From Burkholderia sp. WP9 (GTDB taxonomy: Bacteria; Pseudomonadota; Gammaproteobacteria; Burkholderiales; Burkholderiaceae), in contig NZ_FNTG01000001.1 in NCBI RefSeq assembly GCF_900104795.1, positions 2,666,001 to 2,730,000 on the forward strand: a stretch of 64,000 bases of DNA, given 5' to 3'. Both the position numbers and the translations under genes were made by a program. This document shows, one piece after another, positions 44,878 through 56,855 of the stretch. Numbering within the stretch: position 1 is the first letter of the stretch; each line of letters opens with the position of its first letter. Below the pieces are notes generated by a model. That model did not search any database. It had not been told where the DNA came from and saw nothing but the letters and a program-made list of their open reading frames with translations.

Positions 44878-45482
44878 ATGACGGCACTATCCAAGTTCTT
44901 CTCAAAGAAAAGTCCGAACATGCAGGTGGCCGCGGAAATACAGGAGCCATCTACTGATGAAAGTTTCTTTTTCCCCGTCCAAGAAATTAAAATAGCCGTC
45001 GGACATCATAGCCATGTGAACCGCCCAACGGTCTACTATTGGGGCGCTCCGTGTACATTTATGATTGGGAATTTCTGCTCGATTGCGCATGGCGCAACGT
45101 TCATACTTGGAGGAGAGCATCCTAAGCTCTCGCTGTCCACAAGTACGACGCTTCACCAGATAAATCCTTCCAACCGCTGGAAAGGAGATGTTGTTATCGG
45201 AAATGATGTTTGGATCGGTGCAAATGCGACTATTTCTCCGGCGTCACGATACACACCGGAGCAATTGTCGGAGCAGGCGCAGTCGTGACGAAGGACGTTC
45301 CCCCTTATGCAGTTATTGTGGGTAACCCACAGCGCATTCTTCGTTATCGTTTCGAAATTGACTTGATTGAGCGGTTGCTTAGCTCTCGCTGGTGGGAACA
45401 CGGACCGGAGAAGTTAAATCCGCTTTTGGAGAAAAGTCGAGACGTGCGAGAATTCTTGGACTTATTAGCGCATTCGATCTGA
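44878..45482 (+). pseudogene. Hexapeptide-repeat (CatB-like) acetyltransferase, frameshifted
   Basis: The first frame (44878 to about 45236) gives IGNFCSIAHGATFILGGEHP and [17 protein letters not shown], the left-handed beta-helix repeats of the CatB/VatD type. One base appears lost in ATTTCTCCGG. The next frame continues [20 protein letters not shown], then [17 protein letters not shown] and a helical end. Joined, it would be about 200 aa, normal for the family. It would have O- or N-acetylated a sugar in the surface glycan. Confidence 0.85.
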
Positions 45483-45685
45483 CGCGAAAGCCACGAGCAT
45501 CCACGACATACATTTGTACTAGCGCCGCGCGAATGCGGCTCCAGACTCATTTGGATTTCGGCTTCCACTTGCATTGCGCCGTACCTGCATGGCACGATTC
45601 CAAGGAGGAACGCGACGTGGTCGGCATGCCGCTCCGACGACTGCAGGCACGACGAACGGCAACGTCCACTGCGAAACGAAAGTGG

Positions 45686-46075
45686 TACCGTACGCAACGC
45701 TTCGGCGTCGACTACACCATCCACCCTGATCACCGCTCGACCGATTCGCACTTCGATCGTTCCGGTGGGCGCGCCCGACTTCATCACTGCCGCTTCGGCT
45801 GATGCCGCGGGCACAATGTCGGTGGATACATCACTTACCACTGTCACCGGAATCAGCCTGGTCGTTTCGGCCTGTCGCTCTGCCTGGTACCGGCGCCACC
45901 ACCTGAACAGCATGTTCGCGTTGATGCCATGTTCACGCGCAAGCTTCGAGACAGACACGCCCGGTTCGCATGCAGCCACAGCCAGCTGGTGTCGAAACTC
46001 GTCACTATGGTTCGGGCGGCTCTTGCGGGTGCCCACGATGGTCTTCTCTTCTGGTGCCAAAATGATTCCCGCCAC
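45686..46075 (-). pseudogene. tnpA: IS66-family tnpA, 3' truncated
   Basis: From 46075 the frame reads FRHQLAVAACEPGVSVSKLA and MLFRWWRRYQAERQ, the HTH of IS66 OrfA, up to VVDAEALRTV, and then leaves the family. The terminal repeat of its element is just upstream at about 46125-46146 (minus strand GTAAGCGCCTCGTTTCGACC), so this is the left end of one IS66 copy cut off after tnpA. Confidence 0.75.
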
Positions 46076-46202
46076 TTCAAAATGGTGGGAGCCACTATCG
46101 CGTCTCTACACGTTTAACTCAACAACGGTCGAAACGAGGCGCTTACCGCCGATCATCAGGTGGCGCCAATACGCCGATCCCGGAATGGCTCCATAACGCC
46201 GG

Positions 46203-46501
46203 TCAGTGACACCAGGGCAACCCCAGCACGAGGGCGGCGAGTTGCTCCTGCGTCATTGACTGCTGGGTGCCCAGTCCGGCCTGCGGCCACACGAAGCGGC
46301 CCCTGTTCAGGGCCTCGCCGCGAGCCAGATACCGACGCCGTCATGGACCAGCACCTTCATGCGGGTGGCGCGGCGATTGGCGAACAGGTAGGCGTGATGA
46401 GGACGCGCGGCACCAAAGACCGTAAGCGCGTGATCTAGCACACCGAGTTTGGAAACGTGCGCGAAGGTGGGTGCGCCGGACGAGAACACATCGGTGAGCA
46501 A
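46203..46501 (-). pseudogene. tnpB: IS66-family tnpB remnant
   Basis: The frame gives TVFGAARPHHAYLFANRRAT and RMKVLVHDGVGIWLAAR. After a shift come GRFVWPQAGLGTQQSMTQEQ and LAALVLGLPW with a stop at 46203. This is the IS66 OrfB pattern without its N-terminal MRAG segment. Confidence 0.7.
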
Positions 46502-46525
46502 GGTGCTCTCAATGCGTCGGGCAGA

Positions 46526-47563
46526 TCAAGCTCGAGGAGTGACGGTGGCGGTGAGCTTTGCGAAGTTGAAGGGCAAGAGGTCGGTCACGTCGGCATCCTG
46601 TGCGCGCTGTGGCAATTGCGTGAGTACGTGCACGAGGTAGGCGTAGGGTTCAACCTTGCAAGCCCTGCAGGTCAGCATAAGGCTGTAGATCATGGCGCTC
46701 GCCTTCGCGCCGGCAACCGTGTCACTGAACATCCATGAAGCCCTGCCTGTACAGAATGGACGGATGTCTCGCTCGATGACGTTATTGTCGATGGGTGCCT
46801 GCCCGTCGCTCACGTAGCGACAGAGATACGTCCACTGGTTGCGCGTGTATGAGATCGCCTTGCCCAGCAGACTTTCTGGCAGGACCTGCGGCGCCTGTTC
46901 GTCCAGCCATTTTCTGAACGCTTCGAGTAGTGGCACGCTGTGCTGCTGGCGCAACCGGTATGTGCAGTCAACGCGTGTCTCGCCTTCGGGCAGATCGGCT
47001 TTGGCGAGTGCCTCGACCTGATACAGCGCCTTGAAGTATTCCAGCGCCTGCGCGGCACGGCCGCCCGGTTTCTTCATGCCCTTGAGCGCGTCGACGAAGG
47101 CTCGACGTGCGTGAGCCAGGCAGCCGAAGTGCGTGGGGCCTTCGAGCGTGCGCCAGGCGGCATATCCATCCGTCATCAGCAGGCCTTCATAGCCGACGAG
47201 AAACGCTTGAGGATATTCCTGCCCGCGCCCCGGCTGGTAGTCGAACAGCACGACCGGCTGCGCGCAATCTTCGGCACTGCGGTAGACCCACATATACGAT
47301 GTGCTGTGCGCAACACGGCCAGGCTCCTTGAGTACCTGCACCGTTGTCTCGTCACCATGAATCAACGACTGCGACAGCAGCGTCTTGCGCAAGGCCTCGT
47401 AGAGCCGGCTATAGTGCAGTTCAGCTGGCCGGATGATCCAGTTTGCCAGCGTGCCGCGTCCGACTTCGATGTCGGCGCGCCCTAATGCGTTTGCCATCCG
47501 GTATAGCGGTGTTCCATCGACGTACTTGCCGGCAGTGTTGATGTCCATGTAGAACTGACCCAC
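46526..47563 (-). pseudogene. tnpC: IS66-family tnpC transposase, 5' truncated
   Basis: About 340 residues of the roughly 500-aa DDE transposase remain: LYRMANALGRADIEVGRGTL, LIHGDETTVQVLKEPGR with a catalytic Asp, LLMTDGYAAWRTLEGPTHFG, and DNNVIERDIRPFCTGRASWM with the catalytic Glu. The N-terminus is cut at the IS21 end at about 47563. On this strand tnpC precedes tnpB and tnpA, the reverse of the normal order. Confidence 0.8.
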
Positions 47564-47640
47564 TGAGGGCCGTAATTTTCATCGAATTTTGACCCACGTG
47601 ATTGAATATCCTGCTCAATTTTTGAGCAGGGGATACAGAG

Positions 47641-48360
47641 GTGATCACGGTGGGCATATTGGCCAAGATCAGGCGGATGTATTTCCGCGAGAAGGTCCCG
47701 CTGCGCGAGATTGCGAGGCGAACGGGCCTGTCCCGAAACACGGTGCGCAGCTGGCTGCGGCAGACCGATGCTGTCGAGCCAAAGTATCCAAAGCGCGTCA
47801 GCCCGAGCGTCGTCGACGAATGGGCCGCACAACTGACGGGCTGGCTGCGGGCGGACAGTCATCGCCCGAAGCGCGACCGGCGCACCGCGCGGTTCATGTT
47901 CGAGGCGATCCGCGGCGAGGGTTACGCGGGCAGCTACGGCCGCGTCAGCGCGTTCGTAAGGCGCTGGCACGAGGAGCAGGCCGAAGCCCCGCGCAGGAAG
48001 GCCTACGTGCCACTCGCCTTCGAACCCGGCGAAGCCTTCCAGTTCGACTGGAGCTGCGAATATGCCTTCATTGGCGGGCTGCGGCGGCGCCTGGAGGTCG
48101 CCCACGTCAAACTCAATGCCAGCCGTGCGTTCTGGCTCGTCGCCTATCCAACCCAGAGTCACGAGATGCTGTTCGACGCGCACGCGCGTGCATTCGCCGC
48201 ATTCGGCGGTGTGCCCCGGCGCGGCATCTATGACAACATGAAGACTGCCGTGGACAAGGTCGGCCGCGGCAAGGAGCGTGCAGTCAACGCGCGCTTCGAA
48301 GCGATGTGCAGTCACTACCTGTTCGAGCCGGATTTCTGTAACCGGGCGGCAGGCTGGGAG
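47641..48360 (+). pseudogene. istA: IS21-family istA (element A), truncated by the RIT element
   Basis: The frame opens with the HTH (EKVPLREIARRTGLSRNTVR), then FQFDWSCEYAFIGG with the first catalytic Asp, RGIYDNMKTAVDKV with the second, and ends at CNRAAGWE with the catalytic Glu codon GAG at 48358-48360. The RIT terminal repeat begins at the next base. The IS21 left end with its family-like repeat lies at about 47562-47640. The 3' third of istA and istB are missing. Confidence 0.85.
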
Positions 48361-48448
48361 TATGGTGTGGTAAAAAAAATGTGCTGGTCGATAACCAACG
48401 AGGCCAAGGCAGCGTCTTTGCGGAAATCGAACAGCACATATTATTCGG

Positions 48449-49444
48449 CTACAGGGTGCGGAGGAAGGCCATCAGGTCGGGCTGATCACGCCATTGTTTT
48501 TGTACTTCGGCATTGCCTTCCACTTCGCATGTCGCCAGCGCCCGCGCCTTTGTTTCCAGGTTGATCTCGGCATAGATGTTGGTCGTCTCCAAAGACACGT
48601 GCCCAAGCCAGCCGCGTATCGTATTGATGTCGACACCGGCCTGCAGTAGTAGCGAAGCGGTTGTATGCCGGATCACATGTGGGTGCACATTCTTGCCGGC
48701 GAGTGACGGCGCGCTGGCTGCAGCACGAATAGCGCAGCGCTTCACCAGAGCATGAATGCCGGAGCGCGTCATCGTCTGGTGGAACCGGTTGAGGAACACA
48801 GGTTCGGCGGCGGCCCTGCCTTCAGTCTGTGAGCGCAACGCCTCGATTGTGGATTTCCAGAGCGGGCAGCGGCGATGTTTGTTCCCCTTGCCGACGATGC
48901 TGGCCGAACGCGTGTGCCAGTCAATGTCGCCAATCCTGAGCTGCGCGGCTTCGCTTGCACGCGCTCCTGAATTAAACATGAAGAGCAGTAACGCATGTTC
49001 GCGCTGCCCCTGTGCTGTATTCATGTCAGAGGCTGCGAGCAGGGCGTCCATTTCCTGCCTGCTAAGGTAGCTGATCTCCGGCCGACTGGTTCTCTTGACG
49101 GGAATCAGATGAATCTGTGCCCACCATTCGATGTATTCCGGTGCATGTTCGCCGATGAAACGAGCCAGCGCATGGATGCCGCCGAGCCGCTGATTTCGCG
49201 TGCTCACCATACAGTGGCGCTGTTCTTCCATGTGCGTCAGGAACAGGCGGACCATTTGCGCGGAGAGATCATCAACGCTCAGGCGGTCGATCCGTTTGTC
49301 GACCTTGGCGGCCAGATACGGAAGCAACAGCATGAGCATGTCGCGGTAACTTTTTTGCGTATTGATGGCAAGGTTACGTTCGCCCACCAGATACTCGATC
49401 AGGAACCGCCGGATCCACGGACCCAGCAGGGATGAGTTATTCAT
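48449..49444 (-). CDS. RIT tyrosine recombinase 3
   Basis: The protein has 331 aa, with its ATG (49444) overlapping the stop of recombinase 2 by eight bases. The N-terminal SAM-like domain includes FLIEYLVGERNLAINTQKSY. Catalytic parts are the Arg in FNSGARASEAAQLRIG, HxxR in HPHVIRHTTASLLLQAG, His in GWLGHVSLETTN, and Tyr in IYAEIN. All are present. It acts last in the translationally coupled trio. Confidence 0.88.
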   Translation of the reverse strand: MNNSSLLGPWIRRFLIEYLVGERNLAINTQKSYRDMLMLLLPYLAAKVDKRIDRLSVDDLSAQMVRLFLTHMEEQRHCMVSTRNQRLGGIHALARFIGEHAPEYIEWWAQIHLIPVKRTSRPEISYLSRQEMDALLAASDMNTAQGQREHALLLFMFNSGARASEAAQLRIGDIDWHTRSASIVGKGNKHRRCPLWKSTIEALRSQTEGRAAAEPVFLNRFHQTMTRSGIHALVKRCAIRAAASAPSLAGKNVHPHVIRHTTASLLLQAGVDINTIRGWLGHVSLETTNIYAEINLETKARALATCEVEGNAEVQKQWRDQPDLMAFLRTL

Positions 49445-50378
49445 GATGCACCTCAAGGAAGTAAGTTTCAAAGCGCGTGCCAGCTTCATTCAGCAACTCG
49501 GGCGTCAGAGTGAGGTAGCGCTGGGTGCTCGCGAGATCGATGTGGCCGAGATAGGTGGCCAGTTGCGGTAACAACAGTTGCAACTCCACGCCACCGCGAT
49601 ACCAGGCGATTAGCCGGTGCACTGCGCCTGAGTGCCGCAAATCATGCAGCCTCGGCTGGCAGGACGCACTGCCTTCGCGTTGGATGTGTGCCAGGACGCG
49701 CTGTCGCTGAAAGGCCTTGCACACAGCTTTCTGGGTCACAGGGCGACCATCGCGGAAACAGAAGAACGGCGCAGCCGGTGCCTGCCCAAATCTCTGGTTG
49801 CGTTGCCGGGCATAGGTTCGCATCGCACTATTCAGATCTGCGCCTAGCGGAACCAGCCTCGATTTATAGAATTTGCTCTCGTGCACGTGCAGGACGGCTT
49901 CGTCGAGATTGACGTCCTGCATGGTTAGCCGCAAGGCTTCGCCATGGCGCAGGCAAGCGCCATACAGAATCAGAATGAGTGCACGCAAAACATATGCATC
50001 CAGCAGACCGTATGGACTGCATGCCGCCGGAGCCACGTCGAGCAGGCGCTTTAATTCCTGCTGCGAATAGATATAGGGTATCAGCGGTGGCGGCAATTCC
50101 GGACTGTAGGGAGAAAGTGGAGAAGCCGAGACATGCCCACGCGAGAGGGCAAAACGAAACAGGCAGTCAAGTACCGACCTTCTCTTGCGCCAATGGTTAG
50201 TCAGCGGCCTGTTGCCAGTCAGGAAGTCATGTACCTGCCTGAGCGTGACCGACGTCACATCAATGTTGCCATCAACCCGGCGGCAGAATGAGGCAAGCGT
50301 GGCCGCTTCGGAATCAAAGCGCATGCCCAATGCCCGTTTGTGGCGCACGTATTGGGCGACAACTTCGGAGAGCGTCAT
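49437..50378 (-). CDS. RIT tyrosine recombinase 2
   Basis: The protein has 313 aa; its ATG overlaps the stop of recombinase 1 (ATGA, 50375-50378). The catalytic Arg is in YGACLRHGEALRLT, HxxR in LHDLRHSGAVHRLIAW, His in YLGHIDLASTQ, and Tyr in RYLTLTPELL. It is complete, with a start matching the family (MTLSEVVAQYVRHKRALG). Confidence 0.9.
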   Translation of the reverse strand: MTLSEVVAQYVRHKRALGMRFDSEAATLASFCRRVDGNIDVTSVTLRQVHDFLTGNRPLTNHWRKRRSVLDCLFRFALSRGHVSASPLSPYSPELPPPLIPYIYSQQELKRLLDVAPAACSPYGLLDAYVLRALILILYGACLRHGEALRLTMQDVNLDEAVLHVHESKFYKSRLVPLGADLNSAMRTYARQRNQRFGQAPAAPFFCFRDGRPVTQKAVCKAFQRQRVLAHIQREGSASCQPRLHDLRHSGAVHRLIAWYRGGVELQLLLPQLATYLGHIDLASTQRYLTLTPELLNEAGTRFETYFLEVHHE

Positions 50379-51616
50379 AGCAAACTCCCCAGATCGATTT
50401 CGGCCACACGCCTCAGTCCGCTCAGGTCAACCTTCGCATAGGTTCTCGTCGACGAAGCGCTGCGATGGCCGAGATGATCGCCGATCTCCTTCAGGGCAAA
50501 ACCAGCATCGAGTAAGTGCCGGGCATTGGCATGCCTCAGGCAATGTGCGCCACGCCGCGGGATGTCGATGCCAAGCACTGCGAGACGCGATCGGACAATG
50601 TCGCTTACGCGCGCAGGTGACAACGGTCGGATCGGCGCCTCAACCGACAGGAACAGCTCACGATGAGCGCTTCGTGGACGCGCCTCCTTCAGGTAACGCA
50701 GAATGGCATTCCCAACTGTTGCCACCAGCGGATATTGCTGTGTGCAACGCTGCTTGGGACGATGGACATGAAGGATCTCGCCGCACCAGTCTATGTCCTC
50801 CAGACGGAGCAGTACCACCTCGCCGCGCCTCAGTCCGTAGACAACCAGCAGCATGATCATCGCACGGTTGCGTAGATCGATCGCACTGTCGCCGACAAAA
50901 CTGGCGACGAATCTTTGCACGTCATCCCAATCTGGCCCGAGCGGCAAACCCTCTTCCCTATACACTACGGGTGCTTCAATGCCGCACGCAACGTTGGTAG
51001 CCCAGCCTTGTCCTTCTGCATACCGGAAGAAATTGCGCAGCGTGCTCGCAAGCGCGTGCAATGACACTCTGGACCAGCCATGGTTGCCCTGGTACGCGAG
51101 GTAGGTGTCGACGTCGTGGATAGTGAGAGCATCAATTGCCCTGTCAGGGCGGCAGACCATCGCCAGAAAATGACCGATCTCATCACGACAGTTTGAAATC
51201 GTAGCAGGAGAGAGTCCTCGCTGGTCGCGCATGAAATCGACGTAGTGTTCGACATAGCGAACAAATGGTTCTCTCGTGGGATGCCGTTCCTCCAGACGCC
51301 CCAGAAAACACAGCCAGGCCGTGGCGGTATGGATGAACAGAAGCCGCGAGCTGCGGGACTCGTTCGTGCGCTCACTTCGAACGAGACGAATCCGGTGGTC
51401 AACCGCAAACGCGATTTCCTCGTGCGTTATTAACCGCGGGCGGGACAGATCCATGCTCTGCGAAAAAACCAGCAGGACCCACGCGATCTTGCGGATCGAC
51501 TTAGGCGGATAACCCAGTTCCTGACAATGTACGAGGAAGCGTTTCCTGGATTCCACGCAGGGCGCGAGCGTGTGGGCAGCAAGAACATGCGGACGCGTAA
51601 AGAGAGTCTCAAACAT
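50375..51616 (-). CDS. RIT tyrosine recombinase 1
   Basis: This is the largest of the trio at 413 aa. The catalytic Arg is in VYGLRRGEVVLLRLED, HxxR in AHCLRHANARHLLDAG, His in GDHLGHRSASSTR, and Tyr in TYAKVDL. The N-terminal core-binding region includes YVDFMRDQRGLSPATISNCR. It is first in the operon; the promoter should lie in the 130 bases before the right terminal repeat. Confidence 0.9.
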   Translation of the reverse strand: MFETLFTRPHVLAAHTLAPCVESRKRFLVHCQELGYPPKSIRKIAWVLLVFSQSMDLSRPRLITHEEIAFAVDHRIRLVRSERTNESRSSRLLFIHTATAWLCFLGRLEERHPTREPFVRYVEHYVDFMRDQRGLSPATISNCRDEIGHFLAMVCRPDRAIDALTIHDVDTYLAYQGNHGWSRVSLHALASTLRNFFRYAEGQGWATNVACGIEAPVVYREEGLPLGPDWDDVQRFVASFVGDSAIDLRNRAMIMLLVVYGLRRGEVVLLRLEDIDWCGEILHVHRPKQRCTQQYPLVATVGNAILRYLKEARPRSAHRELFLSVEAPIRPLSPARVSDIVRSRLAVLGIDIPRRGAHCLRHANARHLLDAGFALKEIGDHLGHRSASSTRTYAKVDLSGLRRVAEIDLGSLL

Positions 51617-51745
51617 GATATTCCCCCAATGTTGATCAGTGGAATATCAGTATCAGCCTGAAATTATGTCGCCATGGGCGCGTGAATCTGACAGGCAATA
51701 CAGGGTCATTAAGAGGCACCGCGACATTTTTTTTACCACACCATA

Positions 51746-52474
51746 CTCGTGGCCCAGGCCGCGGTTATTGCGCGTGCCCTCCATGCCGTAATGGTCGAGT
51801 AACGCCGCATAACGTGTCGTGAAGTCCTCCTGCTCCTGCAAGTTCTTGAAGGCGGCCGACAGGCTGTCAGAGCGATGTTCGTGCGGGCTGCCGCCCGCCT
51901 GCCATAGCGCGTTCTGCAATCCCGCAGCGAGGGCCTCGAAACTCTCGCCGCCCTCAACAACGTTCGCATACTCCCAGCGCGAGAACGCCAGTACGAAGTG
52001 ATACAGCCGGTGGCCGAACGGGGCGCCGCCGATCGTCACGCACAGCTTGCTCATATCGGTGAAGTCCGACAGTCCGCGCACGCCGGGCTGATGCTCCTGG
52101 GGGAAGAACACCTCCAGGCTAGGCCCTTCGAGTGCCCGCCACTGGCGAATACGTCGCTCCAGCGTGCGACGCATGCTATCGGGATATCGATCCGGGTGAT
52201 CATCCTGCAGCTTGCGCAAGATCGTGATGCCCATCAGGTTGGGCGCGTTGCGCAGCAACGGTACGACTTCGCTGTCCCATACGTCGACGAAGGGATCAGG
52301 GCGGGTCCGCCATGATTGGCGTGGCTTCTGGGAGGGCAACGTGGCATCGCGCTCGATGCGGCGTGCCGTACGCACGCTGATGCCGGTCTTGGCGGCCGCG
52401 ACTTCCTGCGGATGGTGTTTGCGCTTGTTCATGTAGAGACGAACCTGTTGGTCGGTAATGCGGGTTCCAGACAT
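51746..52474 (-). pseudogene. istA: IS21-family istA (element B), truncated by the RIT element
   Basis: This is a different istA lineage from element A, on the opposite strand. It has the HTH (HPQEVAAAKTGISVRTARRI), the first Asp region GLSDFTDMSKLCVTIGG, the second in HRSDSLSAAFKNLQ, and ends NRGLGHE with the Glu codon GAG at 51746-51748. The RIT repeat follows directly. The 3' part and istB are absent. Confidence 0.85.
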
Positions 52475-52574
52475 GAGCTGACCGCTTTTTATTTAAGCTT
52501 CGATCAGCCCATCCTAAAGCCCCGTCGACCTGGCGCCGCCGGTGGTTCGTCGTCTCCGGCGGCTACGCCGCCTC

Positions 52575-52624
52575 CAACTCCTCACCACCGGCCAAAACAA
52601 TCGTCAACGACCGGCCAAGACAAT
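52575..52624. repeat. Terminal repeats of IS21 element B
   Basis: Two tandem units (ACCGGCCAAAACAATCGTCA and ACCGGCCAAGACAATTGTCG) lie upstream of istA B, as expected for the multiple transposase-binding repeats at IS21 ends. The IS110 gene is cut at their outer edge. Confidence 0.6.
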
Positions 52625-53604
52625 TGTCGCCGCCCAGTCAGGATCAGCTCGGTCGAGCGGTGTTTCGCAAGAAGGCAAGCCGCAAGCAGCTCGTCGAGTT
52701 TTTTGCCACCTTCCATGCGTGCACCGTCGTCATGGAAGCCTGTGCTGGTGCGCATTTCCTGGCACGCAAACTGACCAGTTTTGGGCACCAGGTCAAACTC
52801 GTCTCTCCGCAATTCGTGCGGCCGTTCGTCAAGAGCAACAAGAACGACTTCGTGGACGCCGAGGCGATCTGCGAGGCGGCATCGCGCCCGTCCATGCGGT
52901 TCGTTACGCCAAAGACCGAATCACAGCAAACGCTAGCGGCATTACATCGGGTACGCGAATCACTGATCCGCGACCGCACGAAGACGACCAACCAGATACA
53001 CGGTTTCCTACTTGAATTCGGCATCAGCCTACCGGTTGGCCACGCCGTTATCGCCCGTCTACCCTCAGTGCTTGCCGAGCATTCGTTGCCTGCACGCCTG
53101 ATCTCGATCCTTGAGAGACTACATGCGCACTTCAAGTACCTCAGCGAACAGATCGGTGAGATCGACAGGGAATTGGTCCGGCAGCTCGCTGACGACGACC
53201 TCGGTCAGCGCCTGCTGTCTATTCCCGGTGTCGGTCCTGTCACGGCCAGCATGCTCGCGGCCGAGATGGGCGACGGCAAGCAGTACGCCTGCAGCCGGGA
53301 CTTTGCTGCCTCCATCGGACTGGTGCCTCGCCAGTACAGCACAGGGGGCCGGGCTAACCTGCTAGGCATCAGCAAGCGAGGTGACAAGAACATTCGGCGT
53401 CTACTGGTGCAGTGCGCCAGAGCCTACATGATACGGCTTGAGCGGCAATCCGGCCGCCTGGCCGAATGGGCTCGCGCCATGCTTGCACGCCGACATTCCA
53501 ACGTGGTGGCCTGTGCGTTGGCCAACAAGCTGGCACGAACGGCCTGGGCTCTCGCTACGCGCCACACCACGTTCAATGCGGGAGCGAATTCGATGGCAAG
53601 CTGA
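52624..53604 (+). pseudogene. IS110-family transposase, 5' truncated
   Basis: About 326 residues remain of a DEDD transposase: HACTVVMEACAGAHFLARKL, KNDFVDAEAICEAASRP, and the C-terminal Transposase_20 domain (RLLSIPGVGPVTASMLAAEM, RDFAASIGLVPRQYSTGG, with the Ser-bearing segment NLLGISKRGDKNIRRLLVQC). The N-terminal DVGKxxF segment that carries the first catalytic Asp is missing; the frame begins in the IS21 B terminal repeats. It is predicted inactive. Confidence 0.85.
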
Positions 53605-53852
53605 GCATCGGACTCCGCATATATTTTACCGAAGTGCACCCACCTGGTTTTGCGATCGCTGAAATTTGATGACGTGAATGGCACACCGGCCTGGCGGACA
53701 ACCTGAACACTAAATTGGCTTCCGAAGCCGAAGATTTTTTCAGGATCACCAGGCGCGATTCTCATCGTGGCGCGGAGAGCTATCTCCACAACGACGCCGG
53801 ATAGATTTACGCAAGCCAATCCACTACATCAAAAACCAGCCTTGCAAAAATG

Positions 53853-55222
53853 GGAGTGACCATAGATTTAGTGTGCCGAGGTCATGAGACGATAGCGGAA
53901 ACAACGTTCTATGACCGAAGCAACCGTGAACAAGAAGAGCAAGAACCCGAAGGCGCCGAAGCTGTTCCCCGACGAGCTGATTGATCAATTGCTGGCGCAG
54001 ATTCAGAACAAGGACGCCGAGTCGGTTCTCGGCGAATCGGGCCTGGCCGGGCAGTTGAAGAAGCAACTGGCTGAGCGCATGCTGGCGGCGGAGCTCACGC
54101 ATCACCTGGAGAACGAGCCCGGGCAAGGCAAGGCCGGCAACCACCGCAACGGCACGAGCCGCAAGACGGTCATCACGCCCAACGGCGAACTGAATCTGGA
54201 CATTCCGCGTGACCGGCAGGCGACGTTCGAGCCGCAACTGGTGGGCAAATATCAGCGCCGGCTGCCGGGCTTCGACGATCACGTCATCAGCATGTACGCG
54301 CGCGGCATGAGCGTGCGCGAGATACAGGGCCATTTGCTGGAGCTGTACGGCCTGCAAGTGTCGCCCGACCTGATCTCCACCGTCACCGATGAAGTGCTGG
54401 CCGAAGTCGAGCAATGGCAGCAACGACCGCTTGAGGCGATGTATCCGATCGTGTATTTCGACGCTCTGCGGCTGAAGATTCGCGACGAAGGCACGGTCAA
54501 AAACAAGGCGGTGTACCTGGCGCTGGGCATTCGCGCCGACGGCCGCAAGGAAGTGCTGGGTTTGTGGATCGAGCAAACCGAGGGAGCCAAGTTCTGGCTG
54601 AAGGTCTTCAACGAACTGAAGAATCGTGGCCTGCACGACATTCTGATCGCGGTGGTTGACGGTCTGCGCGGCTTCCCGGAGGCGATCGAGGCGGTCTATC
54701 CGGCCGCCCGGATTCAGACCTGCATCGTGCATCTGATCCGCAACTCGCTGAATCTGGCGAGCTGGAAGGACCGTAAGCCGCTGGCTGCCGCGCTCAAGCC
54801 GGTCTATCAGGCCGCTACCGCCGAAGCCGCCGAGGCGGCGCTGCAAGCCTTCTCTCAAAGCGAATGGGGCAGGAAATTCCCCACGGTCGCGGCCATGTGG
54901 CAACGCCAATGGGAACAGGTGATTCCCTTCTTCGCCTATCCCCCCGAGGTGCGTCGAATCGTTTATACGACCAACGCGATTGAGAGCATGCACATGCAGT
55001 TGCGCAAGATCGTCAAGAACCGCGGTCATTTCCCCAGCGACGAAGCCGCCAGCAAACTGCTGTATCTGGCCTTGCGCAACATCGAAAAGGATTGGAAGAT
55101 GCCGCCTATCACCTGGCGGCAAGCGGTCAATCAGTTCGCCATTCTGTTCGGCGAGCGATTCACCTCCGCCATGAGCTGAGATTTTTTAATCGACCTCAGC
55201 ACACAAAATTCCTGACACCTCC
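53853..55222 (+). mobile_element. IS256-family insertion sequence
   Basis: One complete transposase lies between imperfect inverted ends that share GTGTGC-YGAGGTC (left about 53853-53885, right about 55193-55222, complement TGTCAGGAATTTTGTGTGC). The exact outer bases and target duplication could not be fixed. It interrupts an IS3 orfB whose tail follows directly. Confidence 0.75.
53911..55179 (+). CDS. IS256-family transposase
   Basis: The 422-aa mutator-type DDE transposase is complete. Features are NHRNGTSRKTVITPNGELNL, SMYARGMSVREIQGHLLELY, the first Asp in YPIVYFDALRLKIRDEG, the second in ILIAVVDGLRGFPEAI, CIVHLIRNSLNLASWKDRK, and TTNAIESMHMQLRKIVKNRG with the catalytic Glu. No defect is visible. 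Confidence 0.95.
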   Translation: MTEATVNKKSKNPKAPKLFPDELIDQLLAQIQNKDAESVLGESGLAGQLKKQLAERMLAAELTHHLENEPGQGKAGNHRNGTSRKTVITPNGELNLDIPRDRQATFEPQLVGKYQRRLPGFDDHVISMYARGMSVREIQGHLLELYGLQVSPDLISTVTDEVLAEVEQWQQRPLEAMYPIVYFDALRLKIRDEGTVKNKAVYLALGIRADGRKEVLGLWIEQTEGAKFWLKVFNELKNRGLHDILIAVVDGLRGFPEAIEAVYPAARIQTCIVHLIRNSLNLASWKDRKPLAAALKPVYQAATAEAAEAALQAFSQSEWGRKFPTVAAMWQRQWEQVIPFFAYPPEVRRIVYTTNAIESMHMQLRKIVKNRGHFPSDEAASKLLYLALRNIEKDWKMPPITWRQAVNQFAILFGERFTSAMS

Positions 55223-55223
55223 G

Positions 55224-55552
55224 CATTCGGGCGGCTCAAGCAGAGCGACAAGCCAATCTTGCATTCCGACCAGGGCTGGCAATATCAGATGGCGGTGTAC
55301 CGGCGCCTTCTTGAGAACCGTTCGATCACACAAAGCATGTCGCGCAAGGGCAACTGCTATGACAATGCCGCCATGGAGAGCTTCTTCGGCACCCTCAAAG
55401 CGGAGTTCTTTTACCTCAACAAATTTGATAATCTTGACGAGCTGGAGGTCGGCATAAAGGACTATATCCGGTACTACAACAATGACCGTATCAAGCTAAA
55501 ACTGCAGGGCATGAGTCCCGTAAAATATCGGACTCAATTCGGTCAGGCGTAG
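55224..55552 (+). pseudogene. IS3-family orfB, 3' fragment
   Basis: The plus strand reads GRLKQSDKPILHSDQGWQYQ, SMSRKGNCYDNAAMESFFGT, and YYNNDRIKLKLQGMSPVKYR to a stop. This is the C-terminal third of an IS150-type OrfB including the last DDE residues. The IS3 right end appears at about 55560-55585 (CCAACTTCTGGGGGTCAGTC). The 5' part was removed or displaced at the IS256 insertion. Confidence 0.85.
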
Positions 55553-55628
55553 CCATCTAACCGTCCAACTTCTGGGGGTCAGTCCACTATCCTGGTGGAC
55601 ACTATCCTCACGTGCTATACCGCTTCGT

Positions 55629-55900
55629 TCAAGATGGGTTCGCCGTGCGCTTACCGAGCATCAGTCCCTCGCGCGTCTTGATCCGCAAACCACGGACGTC
55701 CTGTAGGTACCTAACATATTCGCGCAGGACCTCTGAGTCCAAACACTGCGGTTCTGCGTGATGCCTGATCGACGATCCAGAAACAACCTGGAGCAGGTGG
55801 CGTATCGCAGTTTGCGAGCTGAGGCGTTGGCGCCGATTTATGCAACGATCGAGAAAGCGTTCGACCAAATCTGAATTGATTGAGCGTGGATCCTTGACCT
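55629..55900 (-). pseudogene. Tyrosine recombinase remnant, distal part (split by IS3)
   Basis: The frame reads KDPRSINSDLVERFLDRCIN, then TAIRHLLQVVSGSSIR and LREYVRYLQDVRGLRIKTRE, a core-binding domain of a site-specific integrase. It continues the protein that starts at 57365 on the other side of the IS3. It is cut off near 55635 by the IS3 end at 55560-55600, so the catalytic domain is lost. Confidence 0.6.
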
Positions 55901-55934
55901 TGCCCCCGTTTGACGAATCCCATAGCTGGGTGAA

Positions 55935-56855
55935 TTATGCGGCTTCGCCTCTATGAGCCGCGAACCAGTTCTTTTCGAATGTCATGGGGCTGACGTAATC
56001 GAGCGTTGAATGTAACCGGCGCGCGTTGTAAAAACCCAGCCAGTCAATCACCTCATCCATTGCTGCCCGCCGGGTGGGGAAGTGTCGTCCGTGCATGCGT
56101 GCTACCTTCAGCGAACCCCATAGACTTTCCGTCGGCGAGTTATCCCAACAATTTCCACGTCGGCTCATCGACGAACGCATGCCGTAGGCCTTCAACGCGT
56201 CCTGAAACAGGCCGCTGCAATACTGGCTGCCCCTGTCGCTATGCACGATTACGCCGGCGTCAGGGCGACGCCGGAACCACGCCATTCGCAATGCGTCCGT
56301 GACCAGTTCAGCCTTCATGTGCGGCTGCATCGACCAGCCCACCACCTGCCTGCTGAACAGGTCGATGATGGCCGCGAGGTAGACCCAGCCTTCGGCTGTC
56401 GCCAGGTACGTGATGTCGGTCGTCCAGACCTGGTTCGGTGCGTTAGCGGTGAAGTCGCGCTCCAACAGATTCGGCGCCACCGGCAAATCGTGGTTCGAGT
56501 TCGTCGTCGCGATGTACTTGCGCTTGTGGCGGGCTCGAATGCCATGCTGCGCCATCAGTTTGCGAACCCGTTCTTTGCCCACGCGCACGCCTTGCGTGAG
56601 CAACTCCTTCCACATGCGAGGCCAGCCGTATTCGCCCTTGACCTGCATGTGAATCGCCTTGACTTGCGCGAGCAGCGCATCGTTGCTTACGCGGCTACGG
56701 TGCGGCTTGTCGTGCGCGGTGCGTTGCCGGCGCTGATGATATCCGCTGGGACTGACTTCCAGCACTTCGCATAGGACCGAGACTGGCCAGCGGCGTCGAT
56801 TGTGCTCGATGAACGCGTACTTCACATCGATTCCTTCGCGAAGTACGCTGCGCAC
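55935..56855 (-). CDS. IS3-family OrfB (integrase-type transposase)
   Basis: The protein has 306 aa and is expressed by -1 frameshifting from orfA; the two overlap at 56822-56855, where an A6G slippery run occurs (AAAAAAGTGCGC). It has the HTH_21 region (VKGEYGWPRMWKELLTQGVR) and the rve catalytic core (NQVWTTDITYLATAEGW, DAGVIVHSDRGSQYCSGLF, NCWDNSPTESLWGSLK). All DDE residues are present, and the element looks intact. Confidence 0.9.
   Translation of the reverse strand: MRSVLREGIDVKYAFIEHNRRRWPVSVLCEVLEVSPSGYHQRRQRTAHDKPHRSRVSNDALLAQVKAIHMQVKGEYGWPRMWKELLTQGVRVGKERVRKLMAQHGIRARHKRKYIATTNSNHDLPVAPNLLERDFTANAPNQVWTTDITYLATAEGWVYLAAIIDLFSRQVVGWSMQPHMKAELVTDALRMAWFRRRPDAGVIVHSDRGSQYCSGLFQDALKAYGMRSSMSRRGNCWDNSPTESLWGSLKVARMHGRHFPTRRAAMDEVIDWLGFYNARRLHSTLDYVSPMTFEKNWFAAHRGEAA

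Follow-up and report, generated by a model that had tools for sequence, protein, structure and literature searches.

The window, a 64,000-nt stretch of the Burkholderia sp. WP9 genome, carries at positions 48361-51745 (3385 bp) a RIT element composed of three overlapping minus-strand tyrosine-recombinase genes enclosed by perfect 22-nt inverted repeats. We read it as a rearranged RIT, which keeps full-length recombinase genes without a full attachment site. It would come from an istA-specific RIT clade moving by way of a circle with a symmetric junction, the window copy being a secondary product, and this reading taken as a whole is given a probability of roughly 0.7. The fixed spot occupied by the close relatives inside transposon genes offers a testable picture of how the poorly understood RIT family may move: the data give RITs a target motif, a model of the attachment site and a single spacer trace from donor to target, and their movement, together with their need for three recombinases, could then be addressed by a plasmid assay.

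Genes, ends and flanks of the window element

Comparison of the two ends revealed 25 identical nucleotides in inverted orientation (48358-48382 versus 51724-51748), the outermost three of which (GAG) are istA sequence and not part of the element. Because this outer GAG belongs to istA, the repeat of the element is the 22-nt TATGGTGTGGTAAAAAAAATGT and its borders lie exactly at 48361 and 51745. The repeat on the ritC side (48361..48382, plus strand) is the reverse complement of that on the ritA side (51724..51745, minus strand), istA homology ending at 48360 and beginning again at 51746. The coordinates given in the sequence-only reading, which had proposed identical inverted ends of at least 22 bases, proved exact on comparison with uninterrupted istA.

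All three recombinases match Pfam Phage_integrase. The first, ritA (50375..51616, minus strand, 413 aa, 2.2e-23), encodes a SAM-like N-terminal domain at residues 122-202, a single Pfam match of this kind preceded by about 120 residues; ritB (49437..50378, minus strand, 313 aa, 7.4e-20) overlaps ritA by 4 nt, and ritC (48449..49489, minus strand, 346 aa, 1.3e-32) has an alternative start at 49444 (331 aa). A sequence search gave XerD/XerA as the closest solved structures to RitC. The Arg, HxxR, His and Tyr residues ascribed earlier to each recombinase can be read from the translations as LRRGE/HCLRH/LGH/RTYAK in RitA, LRHGE/HDLRH/LGH/QRYLT in RitB and ARASE/HVIRH/LGH/NIYAE in RitC (R/HxxR/GH/Y). 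The identification as a RIT was likewise upheld by a copy on the P. phytofirmans plasmid pOLGA1, whose RitA, RitB and RitC are 99.8, 98.4 and 99.1% identical to those of the window copy, with the same gene order. This copy is annotated with 413, 313 and 331 aa, in agreement with the alternative ritC start, and none of the window recombinases is truncated in comparison with it.

RITs of Cupriavidus metallidurans and others are described, in excerpts of PMC3414803 and PMC2864759, as elements of about 3.5 kb with overlapping ritA, ritB and ritC genes and terminal inverted repeats, the repeat of the archetype being 34 bp long in an excerpt of PMC10214605. The window element shares the three-gene order, the size class and the terminal inverted repeats: its RitA/B/C-type genes are consecutive, overlapping and on the same strand, and each of the translations contains the catalytic R, H and Y. 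Also on record for RITs is a palindrome that overlaps an inverted repeat (excerpt of PMC3414803) and, unlike those published elements, the window copy has a palindrome at neither end.

No cargo genes were found between the window repeats, as had been noted from the sequence alone, the rit genes being the only ones present. A 17-nt piece of the element end, searched with up to 2 mismatches, occurred at just two places in the 9.02-Mb genome, both in the window element, and the reversed-pattern control gave 0; the element is therefore present as a single copy, and this is not due to chance. Among 200 genomes of the order, no RitA match at E<=1e-60 was found besides that of the window's own genome.

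The element is flanked by the 5' parts of two IS21 elements, both ending within istA. On the left (47536..48360, plus strand), a truncated istA (ORF from 47641) covers positions 1-230 of 294 of the family model NF033546 and ends in ..G-W-E, with the target codon at 48358-48360. On the right (51746..52636, minus strand), a different truncated istA (ORF from 52474) covers positions 2-230 of 294 and ends in ..G-H-E, with the target codon at 51746-51748. The two different genes are thus broken at the same position 230 of the 294-position model, face each other, and are cut within the motif G-x-E^(K/N)-G-x-V-E. The right flank, 98.3% identical over 891 nt to an uninterrupted istA of Paraburkholderia aromaticivorans (L138), matches it at 714/729 positions up to the GAG and at 17/60 thereafter; the left flank, 97.97% identical to an uninterrupted istA of Burkholderia ambifaria (L139), does so at 709/720 positions and then at 18/60. 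Since the flanks are the 5' halves of two different istA genes, a simple single insertion is ruled out for the window copy.

The first 824 nt of the left flank (47536-48359) are also 100% identical to a copy without the element in the window's own genome (L025, C1:3874154). This copy is one base short exactly at the RIT target, with GGGAAAGGGC in place of the GGGAGAAAGGC of the intact L139, and its frame is broken; the base may have been lost by mutation or in an excision, or its absence may be a sequencing error. The surrounding region (45000-56855) is IS-rich, with many transposase ORFs which by eye are IS66-, IS110-, IS256- and IS3-like.

Target codon and one-sided palindrome in the close relatives

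Searches with RitA yielded 17 loci in the genome collection; a match of some kind was present in 575 plasmid records, and more copies came from the genus. The close clade, defined by a RitA identity of 77% or more across the matched part, comprises 22 distinct copies, of which 19 have a readable flank; in the three others (L037-L039) the contigs stop 4-7 bp beyond the repeat. Insertion in istA at the same codon as in the window was observed in 17/19 copies, 16 of them recognised by a small istA profile built for the analysis and one (L040) by eye. The remaining two (L032 and L041) are not clearly in istA, the place of L041 within the istA clade being a label given by eye or weak. These alignments indicate that the clade inserts site-specifically in IS21 istA at [N/H/W]-E^[K/N]-G-x-V-E, four codons ahead of a Glu which we take to be catalytic in the DDE assignment.

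The usual layout of these copies is istA5'..nnACGAG / repeat..ritABC..repeat / CTCGTnn-TTATGGGCTCGAGCCCATAA-nnACGAG / AAGGG..istA3', whereby a palindrome of about 34 bp lies beyond one terminal repeat. Thirteen close copies can be read on both sides, and 11 of them have it. In nine it directly adjoins the end that faces away from the istA 5' half (the ritA end in 4, the ritC end in 5). The two others, L048 and L086, carry an IS91-like element (about 2.6 kb) between repeat and palindrome, and past the palindrome comes an istA 3' half. Regardless of the direction of the rit genes, the palindrome of all 11 copies is on the istA-3' side. The last two of the 13, the window copy and L034, lack the palindrome and are bordered by an istA 5' half at either end.

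A search for the palindrome core pattern gave 14 places in 11 of 13 relatives' genomes and 0 with the reversed-pattern control. Judged by eye, 11 of these places border on one side on an istA 3' half and 2 on the 3' half of the transposase used by the sister clade, with one unclear case (L128); on the opposite side, 11 border on a RIT repeat and 3 on the IS91-like element. No solo palindrome was found in the window's genome, where two places with 3 mismatches were no more than the reversed control gave.

L048, L086/L131 and probably L132 have the IS91-like element in this position between RIT repeat and palindrome. Its end CCGCGTCAGCGGTTTAGTAC was found at 42 places in 19/141 genus genomes, and an ATG occurs exactly 10 bp further in 16/30 of such loci, whereas no other offset between 4 and 17 has more than one. 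Some of these ends run into RIT repeats (L160, L187) or palindromes (L168, L176, L180), the survey also including L129 and others of L160-L189. The IS91-like element seems to land exactly at RIT core sites.

Proposed movement and origin of the window copy

From the layout of the close relatives, we infer a circle, a strand exchange and a route of rearrangement. The three recombinases would excise or copy the RIT as a circle whose junction is symmetric, with the palindrome in the middle and, to each side of it, about 7-8 bp followed by a repeat. Such a junction would offer two equivalent mirror-image core sites, whose arms (CCAT..ATGG) stand 10 bp from each other. If either core recombined with istA, the palindrome would come to lie 3' of the target and both gene orientations would be possible, and the spacers would travel with the element as coupling sequences from its previous site. 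One such trace may be preserved in pOLGA1, in which the inner spacer AAATGAG at the ritA end of copy 1 (L080, equal to L047) recurs as the istA target next to the ritA end of copy 2 (L081). The outer spacer ACAACGAG of copy 1 is identical to the other spacer of L081; both identities are predicted by the coupling-spacer model, in a single case. In Tn916-type elements a few bp of old flank likewise travel with the circle, as proposed here for the RIT spacers; unlike RITs, Tn916 has a single integrase, no palindrome and low target specificity.

The window copy could then have arisen by either of two routes. In one, a deletion would have taken place between two RIT copies that point the same way within istA targets of opposite orientation; in the other, the spare core would have recombined with another istA, in inverted orientation. 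Either would join two istA 5' halves to one RIT, with loss of the palindrome and of both istA 3' halves, and would leave an element which keeps its recombinase genes without a complete attachment pair; these recombinases may still act in trans. Joints of the 5'-RIT-5' type recur in L034 and L112 (two different genes each) and in L111, and toprim ORFs face inward from both flanks of the RIT in L108 and L115. A reciprocal rearrangement product was not found in the window's genome, which the loss of a circle would account for. In L090, a RIT adjoins group-II-intron-like sequence and has a palindrome-like arm on either side, the second of these arms being imperfect (8/14, with a threshold of 11/14); this locus is possibly the converse rearrangement product.

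The 5'-RIT-5' arrangement might equally be explained by ordinary homologous recombination between RIT copies, with no action of the Rit proteins, an account whose odds are just short of even and which corresponds to one of the two routes above, being compatible with the insertion part of the main explanation. Its starting material is plausible, as one plasmid carries two near-identical RIT copies and RITs insert both ways round, so that direct copies in inverted targets can occur. It is, on the other hand, improbable that the window copy is a complete and mobile RIT, with the 22-bp repeats alone as its ends and the istA flanks as its landing place. The three full-length recombinases and the perfect repeats are in keeping with such an element, but the facing 5' halves of two different istA genes are not obtainable from one insertion. 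The palindrome of 11/13 close copies readable on both sides means, moreover, that relatives extend past one repeat, an observation that the sequence-only reading had itself named as speaking against completeness; its description of the copy as intact and potentially mobile finds no support either, since two istA 5' halves form the flanks and no palindrome is present at the element or in the genome. That the palindrome belongs to the targets, as a small repeat within IS elements marking the insertion site rather than the RIT, is highly implausible, for although wherever located it lies beyond the terminal repeat and towards the 3' part of the target, the uninterrupted istA relatives L138 and L139 have none at the site, and nearly the same core accompanies RITs in different istA genes and in the other transposase of the sister clade.

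Targets and palindromes across the RIT family

Earlier palindrome detection maximised the palindrome score and was hence biased; the family counts come from a scan in which the repeats were first located independently of the palindrome and one scoring 11/14 or better was then required just outside, only loci with a matched repeat (score of at least 18) being scored. Of these 55 loci, 30 have a one-sided palindrome (close clade 9/15, distant RITs 15/26, fresh sample 6/14) and 0 a two-sided one, and control windows 60 bp further out, some of them not evaluable, contain it in 1/55; these counts include duplicates (e.g. L047/L080, L082/L083) and two loci (L111, L115) in which repeated target genes were mistaken for the terminal repeat, and L037 and L039 have no scorable flank. 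The fresh sample consisted of 20 loci with RitA matches of about 34-38%, 14 of them scorable. A strict scan with 18/17-bp spacing returned 2 matches in the 20 loci, both at least 1.6 kb from the rit genes; it was with relaxed spacing that the one-sided palindrome appeared in 6/14. A universal 18/17-bp spacing therefore failed as a strict rule in this sample, and the exact palindrome spacing is not family-wide.

In a RitA tree of 58 labelled loci and 17 target classes, which left out 25 of the 83 RIT loci (duplicates included) for want of a target label, 16 label changes were counted, the minimum possible, compared with 32-40 in 100 shuffles. The target classes follow the RitA tree, showing clade-wise targeting and not independent events; the agreement was not counted as independent events because related copies in related places raise it. 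The sister group of the window clade (L082/L083) sits in a matching ..PEG^KGKLE.. stretch of another transposase.

Other mobile elements supply 13 of the 17 classes, as genes or as introns; some of the labels were given by eye. Family models placed insertions in the IS66 transposase (L109 split 214|220 of 387, L100 ending at 214, L114 beginning at 218), an IS481-like/rve transposase (L082), IS256 (L116, split 288|289 of 338), istA near its second Asp (L121 split 179|184; L140, L142 and L149 beginning at 181-183; L151 ending at 180) and elsewhere in istA (L091, split 135|142), tyrosine recombinases (L095 split 60|64 and L155 split 131|133, of 172) and a large serine recombinase (L144). The N-terminal istA class (istA_N; L111, L112) is ambiguous, as the IS66 accessory TnpA model scores about equal to IS21. 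Group II intron parts adjoin the RIT in 6/9 loci given to Rfam. Labels by eye or weak are those of istA_C (L101/102), for which a Pfam scan of a 70-aa piece gave no match, IS3 (L098), group II for L088 and L090, and L141. Several target sites lie within a few codons of residues which, from their presumed roles, we regard as catalytic.

Not all RIT targets are mobile-element genes, this being ruled out by a toprim gene (4 loci, three of them labelled from annotation), an HU gene (1 locus) and a DUF932 gene (1 locus), none clearly mobile; an AAA ATPase target (1 locus) rests on a weak match and is of uncertain mobile status. With somewhat more doubt than for the rearrangement by homologous recombination, and tentatively, it is suggested that RITs are mostly site-specific parasites of mobile elements with clade-specific motifs, moving via a symmetric palindromic circle with three kinds of arm. 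Each clade would recognise its own conserved motif, often at an active site, in a transposase, a recombinase or an intron, and the palindrome arm, repeat arm 1 and repeat arm 2 at +17 bp would serve one per recombinase. If this wider pattern is true, RITs live in conserved motifs of other mobile elements, inactivating their hosts and exploiting their abundance as landing sites.

Excerpts of PMC3414803, PMC2864759, PMC8138268 and PMC10214605 report RIT insertions in IS66 tnpA, a Tn6049-related transposase and radC; in an excerpt of PMC10214605, RIT target specificity is described as not formally tested, and one of PMC8138268 describes a RitA with two core-binding domains and a RitC with an extra C-terminal helix. 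To the published RITs as excerpted, the present analysis adds the istA E^(K/N)GxVE clade, the palindrome-side rule, the one spacer trace and the range of targets. The literature matches listed held no report of the istA target or of the palindrome rule, in a search that ran outside the primary RIT surveys (Ricker et al. 2013, Van Houdt et al. 2009) and PMC5737581. According to excerpts of PMC10214605, Tn554, SE and GInt resemble RITs in being site-specific and in the cooperation of several tyrosine recombinases, and SE circles carry 6 bp of left flank, resembling the coupling spacers proposed here; their gene sets differ (Srap/GinD/TnpC), and those excerpts do not mention a symmetric palindromic junction. 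The window element has no fourth small partner (TnpC/Srap/GinD), nor any fourth same-strand gene, because the rit genes fill 48449-51616 of 48361-51745.

Elsewhere in the window's own genome (contig C3), two copies of a large-serine-recombinase element (L023:1243-4563 and L024:1308-8633) split two other istA genes, the second of which has an uninterrupted counterpart in L007. The recombinase is a 694-aa ORF in L023, and the L024 copy is interrupted by other insertions. The two istA genes are cut at D-K^A-K-V-E and at K-K^G-I-V-E, roughly a codon away from the RIT target motif; from these junctions, two unrelated recombinase types appear to strike the same istA motif.
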